A program made the translations under genes and the position numbers. This document shows, in pieces, positions 13,752 through 37,907 of a DNA stretch of 37,941 nucleotides. Within the stretch, counting starts at the first letter, position 1; every line of letters starts with the position of its first letter. The notes below the pieces were generated by a model, which was not told the DNA's origin, did not search any database, and saw only the letters and a program-made list of their open reading frames with translations. This stretch comes from Methanomicrobiales archaeon (GTDB lineage Archaea; Halobacteriota; Methanomicrobia; Methanomicrobiales; JACTUA01): contig JAJRDA010000003.1 of assembly GCA_028678665.1 (NCBI GenBank), forward strand, positions 1-37,941, read 5' to 3'.

Positions 13752-14087
13752 ATGATAACAATACAGGAAATCTTCTCGCATCTCCTCGATGACCTGGGGG
13801 AAGAGATCCTGCGGGCCGAGCTGGAGGGGATCGGGCGCAAGCACCGGGGGATCCGTGCCCGGCAGCGGAAGACCGGGCGGGTGGGCCGCTGCGCACGGGA
13901 GATCCTGGTCTTTTCGGGCGGGACCGGTGAGCCCCCCGCACGCCAGGTCGCCCGGAGGGCGCTGGAACGGAACCTCTCCCAGGCCTCGGTCTATCGGCTG
14001 GTGGGGGAGCTGAACCGCCGGGGGAACCCGGTCCGGGGAGCGGTGGTCCTCCGCGAGATGAAACGGATCCGGGAAGGGATTGTGTAA
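13752..14087 (+). CDS. Small basic hypothetical protein
   Basis: 111 aa ORF MITIQEIFSHLLDDLGEEILRAELEGIGRKHRG..; divergent from 13653; no family recognised. Confidence 0.6.
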   Translation: MITIQEIFSHLLDDLGEEILRAELEGIGRKHRGIRARQRKTGRVGRCAREILVFSGGTGEPPARQVARRALERNLSQASVYRLVGELNRRGNPVRGAVVLREMKRIREGIV

Positions 14088-14147: not shown

Positions 14148-14214
14148 TATCCTCACGGGGGAGGGATCGGGAGGAGGCTCTGCCCCCTCCCGTCACCCAC
14201 CCCCGATGAGGATA
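14148..14214 (+). repeat. Family A intergenic long-hairpin element, copy A1
   Basis: TATCCTCA c GGGGG a GGG at CGGGAGGAGGC tct GCCCCCTCCCG tca CCC a CCCCC ga TGAGGATA: interrupted inverted repeat over the whole 67 nt. Confidence 0.9.
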
Positions 14215-14323
14215 GACGGACGTGTCGGTGAAGTCCGAGACGATGGGACCGTAGGGAACCCATACACCCACTATTTTTGAAAAGAAAGGGTTGTTTCCTG
14301 ATGAAAAAATTGAGAAGAAGAAT

Positions 14324-14778
14324 TCATCTCGGCTGGATGAACCAGCCGGTCAGGGTCTCGTCCAGGATCTTCTTCTCCGTGGGCCGGGTGGCCAGGCTCA
14401 CCGCCACCATGGCGAAGGCCGAGATGACCAGAGCGTAGAAGGAGAAGTGAATCGGGTAGGTGAGGATCTTGAAGAAGGAGAGGCCGCCGACCACGACCGC
14501 CGAGCCAAGGCCGCAGGCCATGGCAGCAAGGGCCCCCTCGCGGGTAGCCCGGCGCCAGTACATGCCGGCGAGAAGCGGCACGGCAAAGGTGGCCAGCATG
14601 ATGCCGATCCCGAGCCAGATCAGGAAGGCCAGGTAATCGGGCGGCTTCACGGCCAGGAAGACGGTGAGGATCCCGGCACCGATGGTGGTGGCCTGGGAGA
14701 CACGGAGGACCGTTTTGTCATCGGCCCCCGGCCGGAGCACGTTCCGGTAGACATCCCACCCGAACATGGAGCCGATGG
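14324..14778 (-). pseudogene. 3' remnant of a sodium:solute symporter (SSS family) gene
   Basis: 147-aa ORF TIGSMFGWDVYRNVLRPGADDKTVLRVSQATTIGAGILTVFLAV.. matches only the C-terminal part of an SSS transporter; in-frame TAA directly before TIGS. Confidence 0.75.
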
Positions 14779-14973
14779 TTTAACTCGATCGATCCGGCAC
14801 CTGGGCTGAGTGAGGGCGGAGCGTCGGTGACGGGATCGACCTTTCAGGAGATGGACAGGCCCGAGGCTGGAAGAAGGTGCACGGAGAGGCCGGTTCTCAC
14901 CCGGCGTCTGGTCATTCTGCCGAACAGGAGATAGGAAGGGGAAAGGAGGAGCGTGCAGAGGAAAAAAGGGATA

Positions 14974-15339
14974 TCACGCGGCCTGCTCGATCTCGTGCAG
15001 GATCTCGGCGATGTCGTACAGGCACCGCTCATCGAACCGGATGCTGTTGATCTCGTCCCGGGTGACCCGCCCGTTCACCCAGAGGGGGATGGAGAGGAAA
15101 TTGAAGAGGTTCTTGTAGAACGAAAGCCAGTAGAGCTGCTCCTGGTCGGTATGATCAGGAAGGTTGTCCAGGTCCAGGGTCCGTACGTCGTATCCGAGAT
15201 CTCCGACCTTCTCCTTGGCATACTCCCGTGCCCTGACCAGCCGGTCCAGCATCTCCTGGATATCCGACACACCGTCCACGTTGAGGAGTTCTTCCACCTC
15301 GTAGGGGAACATCCTCCCGTTATTCCATGATGTCTCACT
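14974..15339 (-). CDS. Hypothetical acidic protein
   Basis: 121 aa from MSETSWNNGRMFPYEVEELL; no family recognised. Confidence 0.6.
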   Translation of the reverse strand, partial: SETSWNNGRMFPYEVEELLNVDGVSDIQEMLDRLVRAREYAKEKVGDLGYDVRTLDLDNLPDHTDQEQLYWLSFYKNLFNFLSIPLWVNGRVTRDEINSIRFDERCLYDIAEILHEIEQAA

Positions 15340-15717
15340 CATACCATCACCTGACAGCCTGGGATTGGAATCCACGACCAGTCATGGACCCGGTGTGAAA
15401 TAACCATGGTGAGCGTTCAGGCTGTTCCGGAAGAGACGGGACCCTCCCGCCTGCTCCAAAATCGTCCAGAACCGTACAGATTCCGAAAAAAACGATGATT
15501 TGAAGGATTCAGATTTCTCCAGGTCCGGGAGAAAACGCTGCGAGAATAGGCCCCGGAACGCAGGGTTTCTCCGCATCAACCCCTGCAGTGAATGCGGGTA
15601 CGCGGGGGTATCCCCACCGCAACAGATGCAGGCGGGGACCTGCCGCTACCCCCGGCCGGCCTGCAGGGAGCGGAGTGTGGACAGGCAATTACTAATTTTC
15701 CGATGGAAAAGAAGAGG

Positions 15718-27356: not shown

Positions 27357-27416
27357 GGAATACGTCTGGTGAGACGCTCTCGGGGGCGCCGCCCCCGCCG
27401 CGTGGGCACCCCCCGG
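27357..27416 (-). repeat. Family B intergenic hairpin element, copy B1 (inverted)
   Basis: Reverse complement CCGGGGGGTGCCCACGCGGCGGGGGCGGCGCCCCCGAGAGCGTCTCACCAGACGTATTCC shares its core and 3' tail with B2. Confidence 0.8.
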
Positions 27417-27472
27417 AGGTTTCCGGGCACCCTCACCTGAAGGATACCCCAAAGAAAAAGGATGGGACGGAA

Positions 27473-27535
27473 TATCCTCACGGGGGAGGGGCCGGGAGGG
27501 GGCAGGCCCCCTCCCGCCGGTTATCTCGGAGGATC
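27473..27535 (+). repeat. Family A element, copy A2 (3' outer arm degenerate)
   Basis: TATCCTCACGGGGGAGGGGCCGGGAGGGGGC-AG-GCCCCCTCCCG; outer ATCCTC/GAGGAT pairing retained. Confidence 0.85.
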
Positions 27536-36507: not shown

Positions 36508-36550
36508 GGTATCAACAGGCGAGACCGGTTATTTTACACGCACGTGACTT

Positions 36551-36611
36551 CTCGTGAGACGCTCCAGGGGGGGACCTGCGTTCCCCCCTGCCGCGCGGAC
36601 GCCCCCCCTGG
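36551..36611 (-). repeat. Family B element, copy B3 (inverted)
   Basis: Reverse complement CAGGGGGGGCGTCCGCGCGGCAGGGGGGAACGCAGGTCCCCCCCTGGAGCGTCTCACGAG. Confidence 0.75.
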
Positions 36612-36660: not shown

Positions 36661-36721
36661 TATCCTCACGGGGGTGGGACCGGGAGGGGGCTTTGCCCCC
36701 TCCCGCAGCATTTACCGGATA
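36661..36721 (+). repeat. Family A element, copy A3 (3' outer arm degenerate)
   Basis: TATCCTCACGGGGGTGGGACCGGGAGGGGGC-TTT-GCCCCCTCCCG; terminal TATCC/GGATA pairing retained. Confidence 0.85.
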
Positions 36722-36769
36722 CCGATGTTTCACCAGATCGGTATCACCGATGGATCACTCCATCCTCCC

Positions 36770-36823
36770 CCGGGGATGCCCACGCGGCGGGGGCAGAGCC
36801 CCCAAGAGCGTACCACTCGTCGT
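36770..36823 (+). repeat. Family B element, copy B4
   Basis: CGGGGATGCCCACGCGGCGGGGGC-AGA-GCCCCCAAGAGCGTACCACTCG. Confidence 0.75.
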
Positions 36824-36845
36824 ACGCGAAGATGGGAAAAAACCT

Positions 36846-37837: not shown

Positions 37838-37907
37838 CTCTCCTCACTGGGGGTGGGGTCGGGTGGGGGGCACAGCCCCCACCCGTCGCCCTCCCCGATG
37901 AGGAGAG
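37838..37907 (+). repeat. Family A intergenic long-hairpin element, copy A4
   Basis: CTCTCCTCA ct GGGGG t GGGG t CGGGTGGGGGGC aca GCCCCCACCCG tcg CCC t CCCC ga TGAGGAGAG; same architecture as A1. Confidence 0.9.

Follow-up and report, generated by a model that had tools for sequence, protein, structure and literature searches.

A 67-nt sequence that pairs with itself from end to end, located at positions 14148–14214 of the window (the whole 37,941-nt stretch of a Methanomicrobiales contig analysed here), is one copy of an abundant intergenic repeat, the A element, which on comparison with published sequences very probably belongs to the rPQS family of the Methanomicrobiaceae (Chashchina et al. 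2021; PMC8044849). We infer that the element is a selected, strand-indifferent site at the 3' ends of genes, acting at the DNA level as a structure or as a protein-binding site; this is the most likely of the readings considered, with a probability of roughly 0.5.

The copy at 14148–14214 (+), designated A1, has a double-ended (palindromic) form that is seen both in its folds and in its match to a 67-nt covariance model (model R2; E = 9.7e-21, A1 itself being in the model seed). Its 5' outer arm contains the tag, TATCCTCA (14148–14155, +), and its 3' outer arm, TGAGGATA (14207–14214, +), is an inverted copy of this tag that seems to change in step with the 5' arm from genus to genus; with both tags present, all 67 nt become self-complementary. 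The inner stem pairs the G-rich strand CGGGAGGAGGC (14168–14178, +) with the C-rich strand GCCCCCTCCCG (14182–14192, +), the latter being the C3TC3 tract of the published rPQS. The initial annotation had described an end-to-end hairpin of about 67 nt, with outer arms, an A-A mismatch, an internal loop and an 11-bp inner stem with one mismatch around a TCT loop, and both the sequence and the fold bear out every part of this description. With its flanks, A1 folds as RNA at -51.1 kcal/mol, compared with -31.6 +/- 3.4 for dinucleotide shuffles (z = -5.7; 0 of 200 shuffles as good), and with DNA parameters the 67 nt alone fold at -26.8, compared with -13.1 +/- 2.3 (z = -5.9), confirming that the pairing is far above chance. 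A1 carries a four-run G3 quadruplex motif on the minus strand only (GGGGGTGGGTGACGGGAGGGGG, 14183–14204, -), and this motif has a TGAC loop; on the + strand the fourth G-run is broken (GGAGG). Rfam searches of the window gave no match at the gathering score, and at permissive thresholds gave only weak microRNA-precursor matches far below the cut-off.

As first described, A1 lies between two converging open reading frames, here predicted as genes at 13752–14087 (+), which has no Pfam match, and at 14324–14767 (-), whose product corresponds to the C-terminal portion of a sodium:solute symporter (PF00474). The PF00474 match within 14324–15375 (-) covers only profile positions 320–406, and the remainder may sit in upstream minus-strand reading frames; judged by this match, the symporter gene may be split or broken. 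A T6 tract (14304–14309, -) is found about 15 nt past the stop codon of the minus-strand neighbour, before A1 is reached.

The window contains three more copies, as had been claimed, and all carry the core; as full hairpins the claim holds for one of them, since only 37839–37906 (A4) pairs end to end. Copies A2 (27473–27516, +; quadruplex motif at 27482) and A3 (36661–36705, +; quadruplex motif at 36670) consist of the core only (tag, G-runs, and inner stem), and match A1 over the first ~46 nt, with unrelated 3' ends. A2 lies in a tandem gap between dnaJ and a HEAT-repeat gene, and A3 in a convergent gap between a predicted AMP-binding enzyme gene and a cofE-like (F420 ligase) gene. A4 (+) is double-ended, with arms TCTCCTCA/TGAGGAGA and quadruplex motifs on both strands. 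Relative to A1, both an arm change and an inner A-T to T-A change are compensated; the third quadruplex loop of A4 is T rather than A, and its tract is a compensated C5AC3. A companion repeat, B, is found upstream of A2 (27368–27420, +), forming a composite B-A unit, upstream of A3 (36547–36610, +), and, in the opposite orientation, downstream of A3 (36769–36824, -).

Iterated nhmmer searches of 955,133 bases of the 1.735-Mb genome (the window plus further stretches) found 123 A copies at E < 1e-3, which would scale to roughly 220, in other words about two hundred in the organism. With the 67-nt covariance model, at least 138 matches (both strands counted) were found in the genome sequence searched. 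The core consensus is TATCCTCAYGGGGGWGGGRCCGGGAGGGGGC-loop-GCCCCCTCCCG, and the copies are of two kinds: composite or core-only ones, in which the 3' arm is missing, and some 30 that stand alone and are double-ended like A1. In 48 neighbouring B/A pairs, B precedes A on the same strand with a spacer of mostly 45–60 nt, and the composite consensus is about 200 nt long. Repeat B itself (consensus GTGAGACGCTCTCGGGGG...CCCCCGCCGCGTGGGCACCCCCC) occurs in 82 copies in the 955 kb and has related sequences in another genome of the same family (G004); one B copy, when folded, was no better than shuffles. The composite spacer contains conserved inverted CGGTTT...AAACCG and ACCGANGTGGNGG motifs ahead of the tag, and a similar ACCGTGGTGG lies ahead of the tag in a second genome, G043, presumably a Methanoculleus. 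Positions 15/52 of alignment A1, in the outer helix, almost never form a pair: 33 copies retain a T-T and 4 copies an A-A mismatch there, and the T-T form is also seen in the genus of G033.

The initial annotation regarded the class of the element as not known, yet its core is a quadruplex/hairpin motif for which an account in related methanogens already exists (PMC8044849). The rPQS repeats were reported in 12 of 20 Methanomicrobiaceae genomes as G-runs with loops of 1, 3–5 and A and with C3TC3 at the 3' end; all are intergenic, about half tail-to-tail, 39% tandem and 11% head-to-head, with no strand preference (PMC8044849). The A core consists of a TATC tag, four G-runs and a C5TC3 tract, and matches the published oligonucleotides: (i) four G-runs of at least three with loops of 1, 3–5 and A characterise the family, 91 of the 123 copies keeping a G3 motif with loops of 1–3; (ii) C3TC3 lies directly 3' of the G-runs (consensus CCCCCTCCCG in alignments A1–A3); and (iii) the copies are intergenic, biased to tail-to-tail gaps and indifferent to strand. 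Of the 136 short-loop (1–3) G3 motifs in the 955 kb, 92 fall in A copies. In G043, 19 copies in 400 kb have the consensus TATCRCCCTGGGGGTGGGGGCAGGGGAGGGGGCTCGCCCCCTCCCCGCA, essentially the published GCA-L oligonucleotide, together with the published GCA and ACC loops, and 15 of 24 short-loop motifs fall in A copies. In vitro, rPQS oligonucleotides adopted quadruplex, hairpin and triplex forms, the ACC-loop oligonucleotide staying hairpin/triplex rather than quadruplex, and the authors already proposed a role of the DNA rather than the RNA (PMC8044849). Set against the main text of that paper, the TATC tag, the double-ended form, the B-A composite and the evidence for constraint are new, and so are the placement of the element relative to T-tracts, the negative searches for Y1 transposase and the test of decay against a sister species.

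Searched with a covariance model of the core, 64 of 120 Methanomicrobiales genomes contained relatives, and in a class-wide sample all of the covariance-model matches listed fall within this order. Exact-pattern matches in named genomes came from two Methanomicrobiales MAGs, OWC_0076 and OWC_0083, and full-length DNA matches to the A1 67-mer from three species of a single genus. The double-ended form is also present in the genus of G043, with arms TATCGCC/GGCGATA instead of TATCCTCA/TGAGGATA. In the outer helix of a 21-sequence alignment, 16 cells changed on both sides, compared with 6.9 +/- 1.7 in shuffles (reached by 0 of 500), suggesting that the outer arms co-vary between genera, although this concerns two columns and probably few events. 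Such co-variation could reflect base pairing or, equally, a pair of tags that both have to suit a single binding partner.

Gene context was tabulated with our own hexamer-based gene caller. Although 86% of the sequence is coding, none of 205 A or B copies lies inside a predicted gene. Among gaps of at least 100 nt, an A or B copy is present in 61% of convergent, 25% of tandem and 16% of divergent gaps, a preference for convergent gaps whose trend is inflated in the longest gap classes because gap length counts the element itself. The A copies in assigned gaps number 43 in convergent, 54 in tandem and 15 in divergent gaps, and in G043 15 of 19 are convergent, four tandem and none genic. Measured from the preceding stop codon, the median distance is 76 nt, and to the next start codon it is 134 nt. 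The single orientation noted for the copies in the window is confirmed there but does not hold genome-wide, where tandem-gap copies are on the same strand as the genes in 27 cases and on the opposite strand in 27 (9/9 for composites).

The comparison of this genome with that of its sister species (G001) suggests that the copies seem to be kept near their consensus by natural selection. Coding DNA is 86.7% identical between the two and four-fold sites 69.5%; in a neutral-decay simulation at the four-fold rate, 7 of 119 A copies (~6%) were still detectable, with a core identity of 0.71. Observed syntenic copies persisted in the sister species in 9 of 10 cases, an unbiased but small sample that includes tandem and divergent gaps, and orthologous cores are 0.85 identical compared with 0.59 and 0.48 for their flanks, a set that includes loci chosen as element-bearing. 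In the 48 composite copies, ATCCTC is 96–100% conserved and the outer G-runs mostly 96–100%, both without a pairing partner, while loop positions vary (44–85%), so the sequence is kept beyond what the hairpin requires. Deeper in the order, positional conservation with G043 (odds ratio 2.7, p = 0.14, not significant) is suggestive only.

The strongest competing explanation is that the repeat is mobile or selfish without being autonomous (REP/PATE/SMR-like): some enzyme would spread it, copies would survive only where gaps past gene ends make them harmless, and sites would be shared through repeated insertion into the same gaps. The hundreds of dispersed copies with genus-specific consensus, the mosaic composites with B at a fixed 45–60 nt, and the archaeal precedents that move with no target duplication (Haloquadratum PATEs and SMRs; PMC3119063) all fit it, as do presence/absence differences at several syntenic sites and the inverted copies at 8 of 32 shared sites. 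The presence/absence sites differ by blocks of ~200–370 nt within diverged gaps rather than by a clean insert of 67 nt, and neither target duplication nor a clean empty site was seen at the discordant sites examined, whose flanks are highly diverged. Identity among A copies is the same within species (0.820) as between species (0.819), which argues against species-specific bursts, against gene conversion and against a burst after the species split; the persistence of 9 of 10 sites, tandem and divergent gaps included, also speaks against mobility. At the 32 shared sites, subtype is concordant in 27 and orientation in 24, favouring descent over re-insertion, while the eight inversions, together with the slight excess of orthologous (0.848) over random-pair (0.823) core identity, leave room for copy replacement. 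The same intergenic site is occupied in opposite orientation in the two species, for example, at L165:690-754 versus L088:6019-6081 and at L072:6733 versus L188:5588.

Searches for a mobilising enzyme bear on the same question. The Y1_Tnp profile was not found in 13 of 14 genomes searched, including our genome (91% complete) and complete genomes; the DDE_3 and DDE_Tnp_1 profiles were not found in our genome; and the A element was not found in phage, plasmid and IMG/VR viral collections. The initial suggestion of a REP/MITE-like element stands in form, as a dispersed REP-like intergenic repeat; a RAYT/IS200-driven REP is not supported by the 14 genomes searched, nor is a MITE, given the missing DDE profiles and the lack of a clean empty site or target duplication in the diverged flanks. 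Two specific candidates were set aside: a RAYT-driven REP, the conserved tag being TATC, not GTAG or CGTC, and an IS630 MITE with TA duplication, considered because the element starts and ends with TA. Overall, we regard a mobile or selfish repeat as less likely than the selected site, yet as a serious contender.

An RNA hairpin in 3' untranslated regions, working in either orientation to stabilise or process mRNA ends, is unlikely. Its stability on either strand, the position at a median of 76 nt past stop codons and the co-varying outer arms would suit such a role. Against it, within the genus, base-pair covariation is not above shuffles (61 of 500) and G-T wobbles occur no more often than A-C breaks, so that RNA pairing cannot be all that is constrained; in the composites, the tag and the outer G-runs are conserved with no partner; and the transcript is often ended by T-tracts ahead of the element. 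Together with the even strand counts in tandem gaps, these observations do not favour the structured 3'-UTR RNA proposed at the outset.

The same T-tracts make a transcription terminator, another early suggestion, highly improbable, even though a hairpin between convergent genes is what one would expect of it. Among 123 A copies, none is followed by a T5 run within 15 nt 3' of the element; a T5 run lies between the stop codon and the element at 33% of element-bearing ends, compared with 6% in shuffles and 21% at gene ends with no element, and archaeal termination is described as depending on U-tracts and aCPSF1 (PMC8716108). Finally, chance palindromes of separate origin, for which only the GC-richness of the genome speaks, are already refuted by z near -5.8, 0 of 200 shuffles and 123 alignable copies, and the refutation set out at the start, of no further copies or of pairing no better than in shuffles (here z = -5.7), fails on the same numbers.

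As for the DNA-level site that we prefer, the A element would be a variant of an order-wide Methanomicrobiales rPQS, in which the TATC tag, four short-looped G-runs and C5TC3 would allow the strand to fold as a hairpin, quadruplex or triplex. It would work in double-stranded form past the ends of transcription units, by being recognised and/or by adopting an unusual structure, and might set a topological or chromatin boundary where genes converge, with a mode of action like that proposed for REP/BIME elements and with every copy held by purifying selection. More tentatively, and a little short of even odds, hundreds of copies may be individually under purifying selection, the TATC tag being read by a protein and the double-ended form representing two sites in one hairpin with co-evolving tags. 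Repetitive palindromes are commonly regarded as selfish debris. Here, the sister-species comparison suggests copies that stay near consensus past gene ends even as the DNA around them diverges almost to randomness, and no enzyme that would mobilise them is known from this lineage. Should this be confirmed, it would offer a test case for quadruplex-capable DNA repeats that serve the chromosome itself, and some Methanoculleus relatives are cultivable.

Among known systems, the rPQS repeats share with the A element the four G-runs with loops of 1, 3–5 and A, the 3' C3TC3, the high copy number, and an intergenic, tail-to-tail-biased distribution with no strand preference (PMC8044849). Unlike them, the present host belongs to another family grouping of the order, the loops are often RCC, and the motif of A1 sits on the minus strand with its TGAC loop. 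REP/BIME elements with RAYTs (GTAG and CGTC classes; PMC3733652) likewise comprise hundreds of short palindromes that bear a tag, lie between genes and cluster in mosaics, whereas the A element ends in neither GTAG nor CGTC and Y1 transposase was not found in the carrier genomes searched. The PATEs and SMRs of Haloquadratum are also archaeal, palindromic, transposase-free and without target duplication; unlike the A element, they are demonstrably mobile between strains, and PATEs have ends matching those of IS605-type elements (PMC3119063), of which the present searches found none. The E. coli PIT or quadruplex-hairpin repeats (cited in PMC8044849) similarly place G-runs beside a complementary C tract and are triplex-capable, the C tract lying 5' of the G-runs in E. 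coli and 3' in the A element.
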